Source: Candidatus Gastranaerophilales bacterium
GTDB lineage: Bacteria; Cyanobacteriota; Vampirovibrionia; Gastranaerophilales; Gastranaerophilaceae
Reading direction: 5' to 3'
NCBI GenBank assembly: GCA_944323955.1
Contig: CALUUK010000001.1
Coordinates: 248,001 to 312,000 of the forward strand
DNA length: 64,000 nt
The notes beneath the pieces were generated by a model, which had not been told where the DNA came from, searched no databases, and saw only the letters and a program-made list of their open reading frames with translations. The translations under genes and the position numbers were made by a program. Each line of letters opens with the position of its first letter. Position 1 is the stretch's first letter. Of the stretch, positions 1,181 to 26,133 are shown piece after piece.

Positions 1181-1212
1181 AAAAAGAACCGGCTTAAACC
1201 GGTTCTTTTTTT
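1181..1212. terminator. Bidirectional rho-independent terminator
   Basis: A perfect 12-bp stem (AAAAAGAACCGG, 6-nt loop, CCGGTTCTTTTT) with T-rich tails on both strands. It lies between the convergent hppA and radical SAM genes and overlaps the stop of the latter. Confidence 0.9.
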
Positions 1213-2198
1213 AATAAATAATTATTGACTATATGCTCAACTCTTGGCCACATTGAAAGAGAAATTCCCTTCTCTTCGCATTGATTTTTAAAGTGAATGA
1301 ATAAATCTTTGTAATGAGCGGGAAGCGGAGTTTTATCTAAATCGGTAAATAATACATATTTATAATCAATAGAAAATTCTACGACAAAAATTCCGATTGA
1401 AGACATAAGTTCTATAAACTTTGTTATTTCTTCAATATTGTCATTTTTATTTTCCACCAGAATATATTTTACGTTAATACGGTCTTTATGCGGACTTTGT
1501 GCATATTTTCTTAAGTTGTTTACACAGTCGTTAAATTTATCAACTCTTTTTATCTTATAGTAAGTTTCTCTTGTTCCGCAGTCTAAAGAAGTAACCAGAG
1601 CTGCTTTATTCATATCAAGAAGGTCCTTTATAATCGGTTGATATGTAATATTATTTGTTAATATATGAAATTCTTTTATTCCGTTCTTTAAAAATTCCTG
1701 AACAACAGGTTTAAATTCTTTAAGAACGGAAATATCTCCGCCTTGTATACATGCCGTAAGATTTTCTCTGTCTAATAATTCATTTTTATATAACTGTTTT
1801 AGAAGAGGCAGAAAATCATAGTATTCAGATTTTACAGGCTTTTGTGTAATTACCCCTTTTGAATCATTCATCCTTGCACAATATGTACAACCGCAGTTGC
1901 AGGCTGTCCAGTGGCTTACGTTTATCCATTTATATGTTTTGGATATTTCATCGTTTGCCTTTTTCTCACGCAGATTAAAACAATTTTTACAAGGCAGGTT
2001 GTCTATACATCCTGATGCAAGAATATTAAGCGCATGTTCTTTTATTTTATAAAAGTAATCAAAAGAGATTTTTTCATTTTTATATTTTTCATAATAAACA
2101 GGCCCGCTCTGCCCGCTGCAGCATGAAAAAATCTTTTCATTCATGCATGATAAAACGTTGTTTAATTCATCACAAAAATAAGATTTAGTTTCTTCCAT
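1194..2198 (-). CDS. Radical SAM protein with N-terminal Cys motif (isolated paralogue)
   Basis: 334 aa. The radical SAM cluster motif CxxxCxxC is seen as CNCGCTYC (C100, C104, C107), followed by a (beta/alpha)-type core with a GGD glycine motif. Before the core are C9, C26-C27 and C70xxC73, a four-cysteine arrangement shared with the three tandem paralogues at 21.7-24.7 kb. That pattern resembles the auxiliary [4Fe-4S] site of SPASM/twitch domains, but those normally follow the core. Substrate unknown. It lies 70 bp downstream of the pentapeptide-repeat gene on the same strand, with no terminator between, so co-transcription is possible. Radical SAM assignment is secure; the reaction is not. 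Confidence 0.85.
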   Translation of the reverse strand: MEETKSYFCDELNNVLSCMNEKIFSCCSGQSGPVYYEKYKNEKISFDYFYKIKEHALNILASGCIDNLPCKNCFNLREKKANDEISKTYKWINVSHWTACNCGCTYCARMNDSKGVITQKPVKSEYYDFLPLLKQLYKNELLDRENLTACIQGGDISVLKEFKPVVQEFLKNGIKEFHILTNNITYQPIIKDLLDMNKAALVTSLDCGTRETYYKIKRVDKFNDCVNNLRKYAQSPHKDRINVKYILVENKNDNIEEITKFIELMSSIGIFVVEFSIDYKYVLFTDLDKTPLPAHYKDLFIHFKNQCEEKGISLSMWPRVEHIVNNYLLKKEPV

Positions 2199-16662: not shown

Positions 16663-17661
16663 ATGAAATTACATAATGTAGCTGTTATCGGCTGTGGTAT
16701 TTGGGGTAAAAATGTTGTAAGAAACTTTTATAATCTTAATGCATTACATACCGTTTGTGATTTGGATGAAGAAAACAGGAGAAATTTAAAAGAGCAGTAT
16801 CCTGATGTCAATATGGTTGCGGATTTTAATGAAGTGCTTGCTAATCCCGAAATAGAAGCAGTTGCGGTTGTAACGCCGAGTCATACTCATTATAAAATTG
16901 TAAAACTTGCAATTGAAGCGGGTAAACATGTCTATGTTGAAAAACCTATTTCGACGGTTGCATCAGAAGCTATGGCACTTGCTGAAATTGCCGAAAAAAA
17001 TAATAAAGTTCTTATGGTAGGGCATCTTTTAATGTATCATCCTGCAGTAAACAGACTCAAAATGTTAATTGCAGAAGGTGTACTGGGTGATATCAAGTAT
17101 GTTCAAAGTGACAGATTAAATATAAATTACTTCAAAAATGACAGAAGCGTTATGTGGGATTTGGCTCCGCATGATGTTTCAATGACAAGTTATATTCTTG
17201 GAAAAGAACCTGTTCGTGTTATAAGCGCTGTAGGCGCTTCATCAGACAGTAATGATATTATGGATATTACACACGTTACTATTGAGTATGAAGACGGAAT
17301 AATAGCTCATATTTCAGACAGCTGGATACATCCTCAAAAAAGAGTTAATCTGCTTGTCAGAGGTACAAAAGCCGCTGCTATATTCGACGATACGCTGGCG
17401 GAAAACAAATTGCAAATTTTTGAAAGTTCTTCGCCTAAAGTTTCTAAAACAGAAGTTCTTGACTATATAGAAATAGAACCGTTGAAGTTAGAATGCCAGC
17501 ATTTCTTAAAATGCATTGAACAGGGTAAACCTGCAAGAAGTGACGGGCATAACGGATTTAATGTAGTTAAAGTTCTTGAAGAGGCAGAAAAAATAATGCT
17601 TGGTGAAAAGGTTAAGGCACTGGATAATGTTAATTTTGCACTTTCCAGAAGTAAAAGATAA
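16663..17661 (+). CDS. Gfo/Idh/MocA family NAD(P)-dependent sugar oxidoreductase
   Basis: 332 aa from ATG 16663 (GGAG eight bases upstream). Rossmann motif AVIGCGIWGKNVVRNF at the N-terminus; the active-site EKPIS motif near residue 93; C-terminal alpha/beta domain with WDLAPHDVSMTSYILG containing the catalytic His region. Closest in feel to WbpB/WlbA-type UDP-GlcNAcA 3-dehydrogenases used in surface sugar synthesis, but substrate cannot be fixed from sequence. pgsA follows after 10 nt, so both share the promoter at 16588. Confidence 0.85.
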   Translation: MKLHNVAVIGCGIWGKNVVRNFYNLNALHTVCDLDEENRRNLKEQYPDVNMVADFNEVLANPEIEAVAVVTPSHTHYKIVKLAIEAGKHVYVEKPISTVASEAMALAEIAEKNNKVLMVGHLLMYHPAVNRLKMLIAEGVLGDIKYVQSDRLNINYFKNDRSVMWDLAPHDVSMTSYILGKEPVRVISAVGASSDSNDIMDITHVTIEYEDGIIAHISDSWIHPQKRVNLLVRGTKAAAIFDDTLAENKLQIFESSSPKVSKTEVLDYIEIEPLKLECQHFLKCIEQGKPARSDGHNGFNVVKVLEEAEKIMLGEKVKALDNVNFALSRSKR

Positions 17662-17671
17662 CGGGGATATT

Positions 17672-18313
17672 ATGGCTAATTTATTGACAATACTAAGGAT
17701 GATACTTGCAATTATTGCAATTGAATTTTTGTTCTCGGGACGACCGGAACTTACAGTTGCTTCTGCTTTATTAACTGTATTTGTAATAATACTGGACGGA
17801 CTTGACGGTTATGTTGCCAGAGCATACAATGAACAGTCAAAATTCGGTTCGCTTTTTGATATTTTGGGTGATCGTGTGGTCGAAAATTTCTATTGGATTG
17901 CTTTTGCAATTTTAGGACTGGTCGGTGCCTGGGTTCCCTTGGTTGTAGTTGCCAGAGGCATAATTACAGACGGATTGAGAAGTGTTGCTTTTTCAAAAGG
18001 TTATACGGCTTTTGGTGAAAACACAATGATGAAAAATAAAGTTTTTCATTTTTTGACGGCTTCACGTTTTTCAAGAGCCGTATACGGAACTGCAAAAGCT
18101 CTTGCTTTTTTGTTCGTTATAATCGCATATATACCTAATATTGAGTATTATGATGCGATGAATATATCTCAGTTTGGAATTTACACTTTAATTCAGCCAT
18201 ATTTGATTTTAACGGCTGATATTCTTGTTTATATCACCGTTGCAATGTGTGTTATAAGAGGATTACCGGTTCTTATTGAGAGTAAGAGATATTTAGATGA
18301 AGATAAACAGTAA
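17672..18313 (+). CDS. pgsA: CDP-diacylglycerol-glycerol-3-phosphate 3-phosphatidyltransferase-like
   Basis: 213 aa integral membrane enzyme of the CDP-alcohol phosphatidyltransferase family. The signature DGx2ARx8Gx3Dx3D is seen as DGLDGYVAR...FGSLFDILGDR, giving the metal and catalytic Asp residues. About six membrane helices. Starts at ATG 17672 with GGGG upstream; a longer frame from 17600 lies inside the preceding gene. It probably makes phosphatidylglycerophosphate, though the family also includes other head groups. Overlaps trmL by 17 nt. Confidence 0.82.
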   Translation: MANLLTILRMILAIIAIEFLFSGRPELTVASALLTVFVIILDGLDGYVARAYNEQSKFGSLFDILGDRVVENFYWIAFAILGLVGAWVPLVVVARGIITDGLRSVAFSKGYTAFGENTMMKNKVFHFLTASRFSRAVYGTAKALAFLFVIIAYIPNIEYYDAMNISQFGIYTLIQPYLILTADILVYITVAMCVIRGLPVLIESKRYLDEDKQ

Positions 18314-18758
18314 ATTTAATATTGTTTTATTTGAGCCTGAAATTCCGCAAAATACAGGTAATATAGCCAGATTATGTGCTTGCAGCGGTGCAAGATTGTT
18401 TCTTGTGGGCAAACTTGGTTTTTCGCTTTCAGACAAGTATCTTAAGCGTGCCGGTCTTGATTATTGGGAAAGCGTTGAAATATTAAAATATAATTCTTTG
18501 GAGGAATTAAAAAATGATTATAAAAATGCTACATTTTATTATCTGACAACTAAGTCAAATCAAAAATATACTGATTTCTCTTTTTCAAATGGTGATTTTT
18601 TTGTTTTCGGTCCCGAAACCAGAGGAATACCCGAAAGTATATTGGCTGAAAATAAGCAAACAGCTGTTACTATTCCTATGATAGACGGGCAAAGAAGTTT
18701 AAACCTTTCGAATTCTGTTGCGATAGTTTTATATGAGGCTATAAGACAAAATGGTTGA
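18297..18758 (+). CDS. trmL: tRNA (cytidine(34)-2'-O)-methyltransferase
   Basis: 153 aa SPOUT methyltransferase that 2'-O-methylates the wobble nucleotide of certain leucine tRNAs. Seen: FEPEIPQNTGNIARLC (motif 1), FGPETRGIPESIL (motif 2) and IPMIDGQRSLNLSNSVAIVLYEA (motif 3 and knot). Full length. Overlaps both neighbours (pgsA by 17 nt, nnrD by 8 nt), so the chain is translationally coupled. Confidence 0.95.
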   Translation: MKINSKFNIVLFEPEIPQNTGNIARLCACSGARLFLVGKLGFSLSDKYLKRAGLDYWESVEILKYNSLEELKNDYKNATFYYLTTKSNQKYTDFSFSNGDFFVFGPETRGIPESILAENKQTAVTIPMIDGQRSLNLSNSVAIVLYEAIRQNG

Positions 18759-19620
18759 TTACATTAATAAAAAATTAGTAACGGGCATGGCGCCAAAGAG
18801 AGCTCAAAACTCAAATAAAATGACTTTCGGTAAAGTTTTAAATATAGCGGGTTCCGCAAATTACCGCGGAGCAGCTTTTTTATCTTCTCTTTCCGCTTTA
18901 AGATCAGGTGCGGGATATGTTACGCTTGCAGCCGTAAAAGAAGTTGTTGATTCGGTTTCGTGCATGACTCCCGATCTTGTTTATTTGACTTTAAAATCAA
19001 ACAATAACGGTGGAATTGCCGAAGATAATATTATTAATGATTTAAATTCTTATAATGTAATTTCTTTCGGATGCGGTATTTCTACGGATGAGAGTGTAAA
19101 AACTTTTTTAATAAATTTATTATCACATATCTCTCCGTCTCAAATGCTTGTTATTGATGCTGACGGTATTAACTTGCTTTCTTCTTCAAAATGTAATATA
19201 CCTTCAAAAAATGCGATTATTACGCCTCACCCTAAAGAACTTTCGCGTTTGTTGAATGTCAGCACCGAGGAAGTAAACATGAACAGGGAAAAATATGCAA
19301 GAATTACTTCTCAGACATATGATTGTATTACCGTGCTAAAAGGACATGGTACCATAGTAACGAACGGCGATAAAATTTACGTTAATAAAAGCGGAAATTC
19401 TGCGCTTGCAAAAGCTGGCACGGGAGATGTGTTGACAGGTGCAATTGCAGGCTTGCTTGCTCAAAAAATGGATCCTTTTAATGCTGCAATTCTGGGAGTA
19501 TATTTGCATGGCCTTGCCGGAGATATAGCGTCTTCTTATTTAACGCAGTATGGCGTCCTTGCTTCAGATGTGGTTGATTATCTTCCGTTTGCATTTAATC
19601 AGGTATTAACGTCGGAGTAG
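18751..19620 (+). CDS. nnrD: ADP-dependent NAD(P)H-hydrate dehydratase
   Basis: 289 aa, ribokinase-like fold. Repairs hydrated NAD(P)H. Seen: GKVLNIAGSANYRGAAFLSS, GCGIS, the Asp-rich VIDADGINLL, ITPHPKELSRLL and the anion-hole motif AGTGDVLTGAIAGLLAQ. The epimerase half (NnrE), fused in many bacteria, is absent here. Housekeeping gene in the trmL operon; the TPR gene follows after 3 nt. Confidence 0.93.
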   Translation: MVDYINKKLVTGMAPKRAQNSNKMTFGKVLNIAGSANYRGAAFLSSLSALRSGAGYVTLAAVKEVVDSVSCMTPDLVYLTLKSNNNGGIAEDNIINDLNSYNVISFGCGISTDESVKTFLINLLSHISPSQMLVIDADGINLLSSSKCNIPSKNAIITPHPKELSRLLNVSTEEVNMNREKYARITSQTYDCITVLKGHGTIVTNGDKIYVNKSGNSALAKAGTGDVLTGAIAGLLAQKMDPFNAAILGVYLHGLAGDIASSYLTQYGVLASDVVDYLPFAFNQVLTSE

Positions 19621-19623
19621 TTT

Positions 19624-21726: not shown

Positions 21727-21758
21727 AATATAGCGGGATTCTAAAATCCCGCTATATT
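21727..21758. terminator. Bidirectional terminator
   Basis: 14-bp stem (AATATAGCGGGATT / AATCCCGCTATATT) with a CTAA loop; it overlaps the stop of the minus-strand radical SAM gene. Confidence 0.88.
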
Positions 21759-22736
21759 TTCTTCACGCGAATGTTCGACTTCACATTTTACCTGAAATAT
21801 TTGTCCGTATAATTCACAATTAATTCCGAGTTGTTTTGCCTGTGCCTGTGTATATTTCATAAGATTATAAACCGGTATAAGATCTTTATCTACATTTTTC
21901 ATTATCCAGTTAAAATCAAGGTTCAGTACAACACTTTTTATTTGAATTTCTTTGCATTTCTTAATCCACAAATAAATCTCTTCTTCGCTGTCATTTATTC
22001 CCGGTACAATGATGTATTTTGCTTTTACAAAGTCAGCATTTTCCGGTTGATTTTTTGCATATTCTTTTAAGTTTTTCCATACAATATCATATGAGTCAAC
22101 TTGTTTTATTCTTCTGTGGATTTCTTTTGTACCTGCATCAATAGAGACAAGAACCCTTACAGAGCCTTTTTTTAAGCCTTTAATTACAGATGGGCTTTTT
22201 TTGATTGCATTTGTGTGAATTATTATCTTAGAAAAATTGTGTTTAATAAATTCATGCAGCAATGCTTCAAATTCAGGATATATAGTAGGTTCGCCGCCGG
22301 CAAAATCAATTGTTGCATCTTGCCTCAGAACTTTATTTCTAATCATATCTTTAATAAGCGGAAGTACTTTATATTTTTTTGTGTTATTTATTACATCCTG
22401 ATTTCTTGGTGCGTCACAATATATGCAGTTTGAGTTACATGCTACCCAAGGGGTCAGAAGTAAATAATTTATATAATCTTCGTCATCCCATTTTTTATGT
22501 GCGATACCGACACAATCCCTGCAAGGACGAGGACAGTCTTTTTCTCTGAATAATTTTCTCAGATTTCTTTTTATTTCAAAAAATTCTTCCCAATTGATTT
22601 TTTCACCTTTATAATTTTCATATATTACAGGGCGTCCTCCATATCTCGGGTTAAAATTATTGCAATGGCGAATTACGTTGCAGTGGTCTAAAACCATTCC
22701 GTGTTCTATGTATCCGCAGCTTTCAAATTCTTCCAA
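21741..22736 (-). CDS. Radical SAM protein, tandem paralogue 3
   Basis: 331 aa. Core motif CNSNCIYC (C100, C104, C107), then FAGGEPTIYPEF (SAM-binding GGE) and a VSIDAGTKE strand. N-terminal cysteines at 7, 19, 25, 68, 72 and 75 match the conserved pattern C..(16-17)..C..(43-50)..CxxC of its three paralogues. Last of three tandem genes; 16 nt after the previous one. Substrate unknown; no precursor peptide or transporter is adjacent. Confidence 0.87.
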   Translation of the reverse strand: MEEFESCGYIEHGMVLDHCNVIRHCNNFNPRYGGRPVIYENYKGEKINWEEFFEIKRNLRKLFREKDCPRPCRDCVGIAHKKWDDEDYINYLLLTPWVACNSNCIYCDAPRNQDVINNTKKYKVLPLIKDMIRNKVLRQDATIDFAGGEPTIYPEFEALLHEFIKHNFSKIIIHTNAIKKSPSVIKGLKKGSVRVLVSIDAGTKEIHRRIKQVDSYDIVWKNLKEYAKNQPENADFVKAKYIIVPGINDSEEEIYLWIKKCKEIQIKSVVLNLDFNWIMKNVDKDLIPVYNLMKYTQAQAKQLGINCELYGQIFQVKCEVEHSREENIAGF

Positions 22737-22752
22737 TGTCTTTTCCTTATCC

Positions 22753-23736
22753 TTATATTAATTGATATTCTTCTGTTAAATATCTGAAATTATTGTAGTC
22801 AATAAGCTGTAAATCCAATTGTTTGGCTCTGTTTATGATATATTCACAAAGCTCTACCAGATATTTGGGCTTTTCAAGATTTTTGGCTCTTAAATCTTTG
22901 CAGTAATCGTTTTCAATATCTATAACTACGGATTTTATTCCGTTTTCAACATTAAGATTAAGCCATTTATCTATTTCTTCTTTTGTTGTATTTATTTCGG
23001 GAATTAATATAAATTTTGTTTCTACAAGAGCTTTTGTATAGTCCGTTTGAGCTTTTGCATATTTTCTTGCATTCTCCCAGAACTTATCAAATTTATCAAC
23101 TCTTTTTACTCGTTGATACATTTCTCTGCTTCCTGAGTCTGCACTTAAACAAACGTGAAGAACTTTTTCTTTAATCCCTTTTTCTATTGCCTTGGAAAAT
23201 TTTATTCCCGATGAATGAACCGTAATTCTGTCAGCACCGTGTTTAATCAGAAAATTAACGAGTTCATCAAATTCTTTTAATATTGTAGGTTCACCGCCGG
23301 CAAATGTTATTTCTCCGCCCGGTCTGAATAACTTTTGTTTAAATAAGTCTTTTATCATTGGCATTACACTGTAGTGCGGACGTTTTTGATAGTTTTGTTT
23401 ATCCCAGGATGTATAGCAATATATGCAGTCGCTGTTGCAATGTGTCCAGTGGTTAAAGTGAATATAATTTATATACTTTTCGTTATCGTCCCAACCCCTG
23501 TAAACAAGATTAAAACAGCCTTCACATCTTTTATCAATAATATTATTTTTATTTTCTTGAATAAATTTTTGTTTTTTATCAAGAATATCATTCCAACTAA
23601 CTTTTTTACCATTGTAATTATCGATAATGTTAAGTCTTCCGCCGCCTTCATGGCAGCATAAACAGCACATTTCTATATGGTCATTTTCAAAACTTAATCC
23701 GTGTTGCAGCCAATGGCAGCTTGTATATTCCTGCAT
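22753..23736 (-). CDS. Radical SAM protein, tandem paralogue 2
   Basis: 327 aa. Core CNSDCIYC (C100, C104, C107), FAGGEPTILKEF, and a SADSGSREMYQRVKRVDKF stretch. N-terminal Cys set C7, C24-C25, C71xxC74, with extra C27-C28. The order Cys - aromatic - Gly - CC - GG - Y(N/K)GK - W - CxxC is shared with paralogue 1 almost residue for residue. Its start shares one base with the stop of the upstream copy (TAATG), so the pair is translationally coupled. Reaction unknown. Confidence 0.87.
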   Translation of the reverse strand: MQEYTSCHWLQHGLSFENDHIEMCCLCCHEGGGRLNIIDNYNGKKVSWNDILDKKQKFIQENKNNIIDKRCEGCFNLVYRGWDDNEKYINYIHFNHWTHCNSDCIYCYTSWDKQNYQKRPHYSVMPMIKDLFKQKLFRPGGEITFAGGEPTILKEFDELVNFLIKHGADRITVHSSGIKFSKAIEKGIKEKVLHVCLSADSGSREMYQRVKRVDKFDKFWENARKYAKAQTDYTKALVETKFILIPEINTTKEEIDKWLNLNVENGIKSVVIDIENDYCKDLRAKNLEKPKYLVELCEYIINRAKQLDLQLIDYNNFRYLTEEYQLI

Positions 23737-24704
23737 TATACTTTTTCCTTATAAAATTTCATCATATGTTCTGCACGCTCATATAATTCATATTTTAATC
23801 CCATATTTTCTGCTTTTGATTTTGCATATGCAAAAAAGTCTATAATGTAATCAGGGATATTATCGCGTCTTGCATAGAACCATTTTGATTCTATTTCATG
23901 AAATACGCAATTTATACCGTTTTCTTTTGTCTTTTTCAGCCACAAATCTATCTCTTCGTAAGAATCGTTAATTCCCGGAATTAAGATGTATTTTGTTTTT
24001 ACTGCAAAAGGGTCTTGCTGCATTGAAGCATATTTTTTCAGATTTTTCCATACTTTATCATATGAAGTTACACCTTTTACAAATTTGTGCATATCTTTTG
24101 AACCGGCATCAACGGATACTATTAAATCTACACATTTTTGTTTCAGTCCCTTTTCAATTGCTTTTGAATACAAAATGCCTGAAGAATGGATTCTTGTAAG
24201 CGGAAATCCAAAATCCATAAATATGTTCAGTAATTTTTCAAATTCCTTTAAAAGAGTTACTTCTCCTCCTCCAAAACTTACGTGACCGTTTGGCCTTAGA
24301 ATGTCTCTTTTTATCATGTCATTCAGTATCGGAAGAAAATTATAATTTTTGAAACTGTTATATTTCTTTTTATCCTGCATTGTATGACAGTACATACATC
24401 TTGAATTGCATTTTGTCCAATAGTCAAGATTAATCATGCTTATTTTTGTATGATTGTCGTCCCAGTCTCTTTCTTCAAGGAAAATACACCCCTCGCATTT
24501 GGGATAAATCTCTCCTTTTTTATGAAGATTTTTCATCATCTCTTTGAATGCAAAAACTTTATCCCAGTTTATGGGCTTCCCTTTATAATTGTCTTCTATA
24601 ATTGTGTTTCCGCCGCCTTTTGCACTATAAAGACAGCATACTTTATATGCATCGGTATCAAAATTTATTCCGGATTCTATCCAGTAACAACTTTTATAGC
24701 GCAA
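23736..24704 (-). CDS. Radical SAM protein, tandem paralogue 1 (first in operon)
   Basis: 322 aa. Core CNSRCMYC (C99, C103, C106); GGGEVTLLKEF is the SAM-binding segment; VSVDAGSKDMHKFVKGV follows. N-terminal four-Cys set C6, C23(-C24), C70xxC73, interpreted as a twitch/SPASM-like auxiliary cluster site ahead of the core. No signal peptide. It heads a three-gene tandem array. The upstream lineage-specific gene is on the same strand but a terminator (24746-24774) separates them. Confidence 0.87.
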   Translation of the reverse strand: MRYKSCYWIESGINFDTDAYKVCCLYSAKGGGNTIIEDNYKGKPINWDKVFAFKEMMKNLHKKGEIYPKCEGCIFLEERDWDDNHTKISMINLDYWTKCNSRCMYCHTMQDKKKYNSFKNYNFLPILNDMIKRDILRPNGHVSFGGGEVTLLKEFEKLLNIFMDFGFPLTRIHSSGILYSKAIEKGLKQKCVDLIVSVDAGSKDMHKFVKGVTSYDKVWKNLKKYASMQQDPFAVKTKYILIPGINDSYEEIDLWLKKTKENGINCVFHEIESKWFYARRDNIPDYIIDFFAYAKSKAENMGLKYELYERAEHMMKFYKEKV

Positions 24705-24745: not shown

Positions 24746-24774
24746 AAAAAGACATTCTATTGAATGTCTTTTTT
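24746..24774. terminator. Terminator after the 458-aa membrane protein gene
   Basis: Stem AAAAAGACATTC / GAATGTCTTTTT with a 4-nt loop and T-run on both strands; it overlaps that gene's stop codon. Confidence 0.85.
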
Positions 24775-26133
24775 ATTTTCGTTTTTGTATTCTTCTTTTA
24801 TATTTTCCGCTACGTGGAATTTTGTGGTTCCTGTTTTCCATTCTCTGTATTTATAAATTAGTTTTGGAATAATATAACCGAGTACAAAACAAGATATTGC
24901 TATATTTGCGGTAGTTGAAAGAACTTTTAATCCTTTTGTTTTTGATAAAAATTTATTTATCGTTTCTCCTGATGAGCTGTATTTTTTATCAATATTTAGC
25001 AAATCTTTTGCAAGTGTTTCTATTTCTTTCGTATCAATATATTTTGAAGTATCTACAAACTGTTTTCCTGCTGCATCTTTCACGGTGCCAACAATTCCTG
25101 CTTTTTTTGCCGCTTTTACGAGAATATTGTCCGGATTTTGTACAATAAAATTAAGTTTTTCCGTCAATGATTTGTCTGCAGCAGGCATTTTAGAAATTTG
25201 CTCTGCAATTTTGCCTGATTTAAGCGCTTCTTTAAATTCTTTATCCATTAATACATCTATTTTTAAATCGATAGGTTTGTGTAAGAGCTTTTCAGATAGT
25301 TTATTTATTCCGTTTTCGATTAAACCGCCAAATCCATATACGAAGAATAAGAATACTCCTTCTTTTATTGCGTGTTCAGCAAGTTCAGTTGCATTCCTTG
25401 AGCATGCAAGTCTTTCTGTTGTAATACCTGCGTCAATAATTTTCATATTATGAACGGGATTAAACATAATTGCATCTGCGACGGATTGCAATTTCCCTTT
25501 GAATGAAGGAGTTTTATCTGCCGTAGTGTTAAATTTATCGTCTATTTCTTTAAAAACATCACTTGTTTGTGTTTTTACGAAAGTGTTTTTTGAGTCATTT
25601 TGACCGTTATATTTTTTTACAGCCAGCATTTCATTTACCGTTGTATCTTTTGTTTTCTTTTGTTTAAATTTTGTCAGGCTGAAAAAAGTTGCAAGTGTTA
25701 ACGCCGTTGCGATTATTACTTTGCTTTTAAATAAATTTTTAGCAAGTTTCCCGCCGTCTTTAAGCGCATCTGTTAATGCAGATTGTACGGTTTGCACTTT
25801 GCTGTTATTCATTATTCCTTTTGCGTTTTCCGTTGCCCATTTTGCATATTCACCGTCCGCAATAATTCTCGGGTCAACGGCAGGATTTATGTTTTTTGCT
25901 TTATATACTGTTTTGTCTATGAGTTTTTTAAAAAACGGGATGCCGCCAATCCAAATAGCCTGCGTACCAAACTCATCTATTGCCCTGTCCATACCTTCAA
26001 CAGGTCCGCCTTCTTTAAATGATTTTAATGTTAAACTGGTTGAGTCTACACCATCTTTTATCATTATCGGAACAAGTGATTCTTTGTTCCCTAAAGTTGA
26101 AATTACTTTTGTTGTTATAGCTTGTATTGTCAT
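24757..26133 (-). CDS. Lineage-specific membrane-associated protein, function unknown
   Basis: 458 aa; no family recognised. Visible: a Gly-rich N-terminus (about 1-100), a hydrophobic segment at 139-153 (VIIATALTLATFFSL), a motif PSFKGKL at 209-215, a conserved-looking block with FNPVHNM and RLACSRNATELAEHA (224-256), a second hydrophobic segment at 260-275 and a third near 413-432 before a basic/acidic tail. No signal peptide. The ATG is preceded by AAGGAA. A 27-codon ORF with a strong ribosome site ends 26 nt upstream, probably in the same transcript. The SFKG motif recalls VSFSG in the RelA/SpoT-like protein at 51.9 kb. Confidence 0.75.
   Translation of the reverse strand: MTIQAITTKVISTLGNKESLVPIMIKDGVDSTSLTLKSFKEGGPVEGMDRAIDEFGTQAIWIGGIPFFKKLIDKTVYKAKNINPAVDPRIIADGEYAKWATENAKGIMNNSKVQTVQSALTDALKDGGKLAKNLFKSKVIIATALTLATFFSLTKFKQKKTKDTTVNEMLAVKKYNGQNDSKNTFVKTQTSDVFKEIDDKFNTTADKTPSFKGKLQSVADAIMFNPVHNMKIIDAGITTERLACSRNATELAEHAIKEGVFLFFVYGFGGLIENGINKLSEKLLHKPIDLKIDVLMDKEFKEALKSGKIAEQISKMPAADKSLTEKLNFIVQNPDNILVKAAKKAGIVGTVKDAAGKQFVDTSKYIDTKEIETLAKDLLNIDKKYSSSGETINKFLSKTKGLKVLSTTANIAISCFVLGYIIPKLIYKYREWKTGTTKFHVAENIKEEYKNENKKDIQ

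Follow-up and report, generated by a model that had tools for sequence, protein, structure and literature searches.

Radical SAM proteins with a probable twitch-type domain ahead of the core form a large, dispersed family in a Candidatus Gastranaerophilales genome

In the Candidatus Gastranaerophilales genome, three related radical SAM protein-encoding genes (A, B and C) lie in tandem on the reverse strand of the window, i.e., the whole stretch of 64,000 nucleotides that was analysed, and a fourth member of the same family is encoded at a distance from them. The term twitch-first is used below for the position of a predicted twitch-like domain at the N-terminus of these proteins. The features are as follows:

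23736..24704, (-): trio gene A, 322 aa twitch-first radical SAM protein, TTG start (PF04055, 1.4e-15)
24426..24704, (-): gene A N-terminal twitch-like domain, Cys 6, 23, 70, 73
24387..24410, (-): gene A CxxxCxxC radical SAM cluster motif, residues 99-106
22753..23736, (-): trio gene B, 327 aa twitch-first radical SAM protein (PF04055, 3e-18)
23455..23736, (-): gene B N-terminal twitch-like domain, Cys 7, 24, 71, 74
23416..23439, (-): gene B CxxxCxxC motif, residues 100-107
21741..22736, (-): trio gene C, 331 aa twitch-first radical SAM protein, TTG start (PF04055, 4.2e-22)
22455..22736, (-): gene C N-terminal twitch-like domain, Cys 7, 25, 72, 75 in gene C numbering
22416..22439, (-): gene C CxxxCxxC motif, residues 100-107
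1194..2198, (-): fourth family member in the window, 334 aa
1917..2198, (-): fourth member N-terminal twitch-like domain
1878..1901, (-): fourth member CxxxCxxC motif

The first-pass annotation of this DNA had reported four open reading frames, and all were recovered at the same positions with lengths of 322, 327, 331 and 334 aa, together with the 1-nt TAATG overlap of genes A and B and a 16-nt gap within the trio. The N-terminal cysteines that it had singled out (C6/C7, C23/C24, C70-C73/C71-C74), followed by CxxxCxxC at residues 99/100-106/107, are present in each of the four proteins. PF04055 scores of 36 to 80 bits, against a gathering score of 29.5, place all four in the radical SAM superfamily; Pfam sees only the core in them, from approximately residue 94 on. 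Pairwise identity is 34-40% among the trio members and 26-28% between the trio and the 1194-2198 protein, which belongs to a different branch of the family and groups with L066:14352 and L076:7753.

Gene order in the trio is conserved at 32 of 34 related loci, of which two are truncated by a contig end, and two further loci hold A and B only; gene C is present in 32 of the 34, and gene A orthologues across these loci are 67-88% identical. Strong purifying selection acts on the trio, with dN/dS values of 0.04-0.07 against the nearest relative (L122) and dS near saturation. In most relatives of the trio, TTG or GTG starts predominate in A and C, and every B starts with ATG. The 458 aa protein encoded at 24757-26133 adjoins both rplI and the trio in a conserved arrangement; paralogues of it occur in many Gastranaerophilales genomes, and it has no NCBIfam match.

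A profile built on the four window proteins identified 42 paralogues of the twitch-first family in the 1.96 Mb genome, plus further weak matches, which is about half of the 85 PF04055 matches found there. The four paralogues reported earlier are real, yet they are only 4 of about 42, and the expansion had been missed. The copies are solitary or tandem (four in L066, five in L067), and the nine genes of an array around C9:43-53 kb include three, interspersed with family members, whose products have an N-terminal SPASM domain. Seven cysteines (C7, C24, C71, C74 and the three of CxxxCxxC, gene B numbering) are invariant in 42 of 42 paralogues, as are G148, K211 and N249. All seven are also kept in 203 further members, apart from one C104G, and in 22 distant (outgroup) homologues, where the sole deviation is an alignment gap at C24; since the pattern is invariant across the genome and in essentially all of these relatives, its conservation is far beyond chance. 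It is unusual for a small host-associated bacterium with a 2 Mb genome to devote about half of its radical SAM domains to some 42 diverged paralogues in which the cluster ligands are all retained. One family member, L131:2217-3197, lacks a core cysteine (CNCNGIYC) and is perhaps decaying or inactive.

An AlphaFold model of the gene B product, computed with 103 family sequences as input, reached a pLDDT of 94.1 and a pTM of 0.91, and residues 1-94 folded alone reached 91.4 and 0.79. In the latter model, strands 13-16 and 20-22 form a β-hairpin, followed by a short strand (36-39) and a helix (48-63), giving the order Cys 7, hairpin, Cys 24, strand, helix, CxxC (71, 74). In a twitch site a β-hairpin is flanked by a ligand on each side, and two more ligands come behind the next helix; SkfB has a short additional strand (PMC6231123). 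The predicted secondary structure and cysteine order of the family agree closely with this arrangement. The location differs: SPASM/twitch domains are reviewed as C-terminal extensions (PMC9012708), whereas residues 1-94 precede the core in every member. Only four non-core cysteines are invariant, short of the seven-cysteine SPASM motif that holds two auxiliary clusters. The four window proteins have no Pfam SPASM match (PF13186) over the gathering score, and hhalign comparison with the N-terminal SPASM domains described below gave 2% for the family N-terminal domain and a weak match in the right register for the outgroup copies (27%, E 6.6e-4); a Foldseek search with the isolated domain returned no PDB match. 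The twitch-like cysteine set suggested by the first-pass annotation is therefore borne out by the predicted fold order, and less so by homology, the profile match to SPASM being weak and a PDB fold match missing. On the strength of the models, residues 1-94 are very probably a twitch-type domain that precedes the radical SAM core.

Related proteins of the same genome carry a Pfam SPASM domain before the core (1.8e-13), and hhalign shows their N-terminal SPASM domains to be homologous to the C-terminal SPASM domains of that genome (98%). Five such proteins were noted (L064:14512-15528, 17557-18585 and 18609-19622; L069:7141-8178; L075:6834-7967), and canonical core-then-SPASM proteins coexist with them. 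In SkfB the C-terminal domain wraps back so that its first strand lies beside strand 1 of the core (PMC6231123), and a swap to the front would therefore be topologically easy: the domain of known twitch enzymes comes after the barrel and turns back to its first strand, where a copy attached immediately ahead of strand 1 might also sit. If an auxiliary cluster site in front is confirmed, the twitch module can be permuted, which bears on the access of the cluster to the active site.

The N-terminal-twitch layout is an already known kind. The NF033640 model (N_Twi_rSAM) has a cysteine-rich domain first and the core after it, as in the family, and it spans both parts of N-terminal SPASM proteins of this genome, such as L075:6834-7967 (residues 26-310, 57 bits), although these too score below the cut-off. 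Against the trio it aligns to the core only, with 41.4 bits for C and 28.9 bits for B relative to a cut-off of 170, and gene A and the fourth member are not among its listed matches. The proposal of an undescribed permuted family consequently needs narrowing: the layout had already been named, but the members fall far below the cut-off, and the literature searched yielded no characterised NF033640-type protein. Nor did it yield a paper on N-terminal twitch or SPASM domains or on radical SAM expansion in Melainabacteria/Gastranaerophilales, or a description of the expansion, of ligands invariant across it or of the loss of the set in one clade.

The cluster ligands of BtrN, a radical SAM dehydrogenase of butirosin biosynthesis, are C169, C187, C232 and C235, spaced 18/45/3, compared with 17/47/3 in the family. 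Four cysteines, on either side of the hairpin and, as a pair, beyond the helix as in the family model, fully ligate the BtrN cluster (PMC6231123), and this twitch enzyme oxidises an aminocyclitol (PMC9012708). Its twitch domain follows the core, however, and its sequence match to the family is confined to the core (residues 84-205, E 6.5e-4, profile). SkfB, SuiB and anSME combine a radical SAM core with a twitch or SPASM domain and are among the best fold matches, but their auxiliary domain is C-terminal and TM-scores against the family do not exceed 0.57; the family also shows no sign of the N-terminal peptide-binding RRE that SkfB and SuiB possess. BlsE is the best fold match (E 3.6e-9) and also a sequence match (1.7e-8). 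DesII is a fold match as well, and both enzymes act on nucleotide or sugar substrates; TM-scores nevertheless stay below 0.5, the sequence match is limited to the core and neither enzyme is twitch-first. Viperin is also among the nearest fold matches.

The distribution of the family was assessed in a genus survey of 34 genus-mates, mostly from rabbit, ruminant and other animal gut samples, and the genome itself. Copy numbers in the genus range from 5 to at least 37, the ceiling of the scoring, and the family is retained in most species, with zero copies in three genomes of the survey; a fourth zero-copy genus-mate (G237) came from an order survey. Two neighbouring genera hold 10 and 18 copies, other genera of the taxonomic family hold 0-2, and a phylum sample contained none outside the order Gastranaerophilales. 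A phage origin was rejected: phage records had no match to the family, and viral contigs gave only two, at 22%.

Three of the four zero-copy genomes form one clade (100/99 in the MATE tree, 92/90 in the 458 aa protein tree), which in the latter tree is nested among carriers, behind starred branches. The non-carrier clade comprises G008, G032 and G237, and possibly G018. The corresponding sites are clean: G032 has rplI, the 458 aa gene and the D-lactate dehydrogenase gene without the trio, and G008 and G237 have hisH and the MATE gene without the radical SAM gene. In G225, from another genus, a family copy lies near the 458 aa gene, and in G260 copies adjoin the MATE gene; the presence of copies at these two sites therefore probably predates the genus, and loss is the best reading of the empty sites. 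Because every dispersed copy was lost in that clade, the set appears to have been lost as a whole, which, from this one clade, suggests a common dependency among the copies. The zero-copy sister clade with its clean empty sites offers a ready comparison for finding the product.

Two neighbouring genes were the best candidates for a partner. The D-lactate dehydrogenase gene comes directly after the trio, at a distance of at most 1 nt, in 23 of 34 relatives; it was ruled out as a partner, as it stays in place where the trio is absent (L276). The MATE exporter gene is coupled to a family member in all 11 carriers. In three of the 11 genomes the MATE gene is part of a fusion, giving 759-782 aa proteins that join a family member to a complete MATE transporter (L070:9540-11819, L246, L252), and in the remaining genomes the unfused gene overlaps the upstream radical SAM gene by 14-20 nt. 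This exporter was likewise ruled out as a partner, with orthologues 59-61% identical in genus-mates that lack the family. Pre-existing neighbours account for both linkages, since each gene keeps its site in genus-mates that have no family copies. SGNH/AlgJ-like proteins (a family name assigned by eye) were also discarded as partners; the genome has only six, some near copies, with no clear link.

The distant homologues lie in other Gastranaerophilales genera (L216, L220, L225-L232), at 0-2 per genome, and share the same seven-cysteine layout; their N-terminal domains are homologous to those of the family (98.5% profile probability), and they form one separate side of the tree (100/98). Twelve of 13 copies of outgroup clade 2 are located among GT2, NeuB, TPP-enzyme, pyruvyl-transferase or flippase genes, i.e., in O-antigen-type clusters, some of these genes being named by eye and others tested. 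These O-antigen/capsule-cluster proteins differ from the family in their glycan clusters, their fusions and their often greater length. Fusions include a GT2 domain ahead of a twitch-first radical SAM protein in O-antigen-type clusters (L225:6595-8676, L226:8265-10382) and a radical SAM-hexapeptide acyltransferase protein beside gyrase and a PGA_cap gene (L214:7568-9466, with orthologues L215 and L217); the g23 copies fused to hexapeptide acyltransferase adjoin the PGA_cap gene. In the genus itself, most copies are single, their surroundings are housekeeping genes and glycan genes do not recur next to them, and one member of the genome has a GT2 gene 2 nt upstream.

Considering the glycan context of the homologues, the BlsE and DesII matches and the electron-acceptor precedents, we tentatively favor a role in the oxidation of cell-envelope sugar precursors, with trans-acting peptide maturation as the next most likely reading. 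The proteins would carry two putative Fe-S clusters, a SAM-cleaving [4Fe-4S] cluster on CxxxCxxC and an auxiliary cluster on the four twitch-domain cysteines. By analogy with the proposal for BtrN, the front-placed auxiliary cluster could take an electron from the substrate radical, and, because of this possible acceptor role, the most likely reaction would be a net two-electron C-H oxidation of a small, sugar-like substrate. Electron-accepting auxiliary clusters are associated with two-electron oxidation in BtrN, PqqE and SuiB (PMC9012708). In this reading the family, which is related to genes of O-antigen/capsule clusters, would have expanded in this lineage to about 42 scattered copies, and the individual enzymes would probably differ in which variant of a single class of cell-envelope glycan precursor they modify. 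The description of the family as radical SAM oxidoreductases with a single auxiliary cluster that modify envelope sugars is accordingly offered as a working hypothesis; function in this subfamily is hard to predict from sequence clusters (PMC6231123), and twitch and SPASM enzymes also modify peptides.

Peptides are the substrate in the next reading, in which each paralogue crosslinks or oxidises peptides or surface proteins encoded elsewhere, as SPASM/twitch RiPP enzymes do. The presence of SuiB, SkfB and anSME among the nearest fold matches, besides BlsE, DesII and viperin, is consistent with it; numerous paralogues could serve numerous peptide substrates, and the MATE-type exporter that is coupled or fused to family members also matches the profile of the tryglysin exporter WgkD (65 bits). 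The same MATE gene, though, occurs without the family in genus-mates, the outgroup context is glycan rather than peptide, and Pfam reported no peptide-binding RRE domain in the four window proteins. The absence of a precursor peptide or transporter next to the trio, as stated in the first-pass annotation, was confirmed, and inspection of the surroundings of all 42 copies found no recurring small ORF, transporter or partner gene. A system of precursor peptide and adjacent RiPP maturase was rejected on the lack of a recurring small ORF, and maturation in trans is rather doubtful.

Modification of RNA, cofactors or proteins in general, with no relation to the envelope, is somewhat less probable still. 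It would treat the O-antigen context as a property of a different family branch, and it draws on the location of copies among housekeeping genes and on the separate position of the outgroup in the tree, which does not require a shared function. About 42 diverged copies, in numbers that vary between genomes and fall to none in one clade, are unlike a core modification enzyme.

Zinc binding or a purely structural role of the N-terminal cysteines, with no auxiliary cluster, is improbable. Four-cysteine sites with CxxC can bind zinc, and the isolated domain lacks a PDB fold match; on the other side, the cysteine order and secondary structure equal those of a twitch site, and sister proteins hold true SPASM domains in the same position. 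Least probable is a hitch-hiking, self-spreading gene family without a shared host function, inserted into operons and purged in one clade: clean empty sites between hisH and the MATE gene and between the 458 aa and D-lactate dehydrogenase genes, and copies that abut or overlap host genes, would suit it, but the seven ligands are kept in essentially every copy, the low dN/dS and conserved trio order speak against it, and no mobile-element gene was recognised by eye in the neighbourhoods inspected.

The presence of the dispersed copies as a set or not at all raises the possibility, less likely than not, that a twitch-first lineage radiated into approximately 40 paralogues that act jointly on one substrate class and are kept or lost as a unit, as a bacterial combinatorial modification system of permuted radical enzymes. 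The family provides a natural set of enzymes that share an architecture and may span many specificities. Directly beside one of its members lies another radical SAM expansion: L084:1-7491 (C1:357000-364490 of the genome) encodes at least five tandem B12-binding radical SAM proteins of approximately 520-540 aa, with PF02310 and PF04055 confirmed in one of them.
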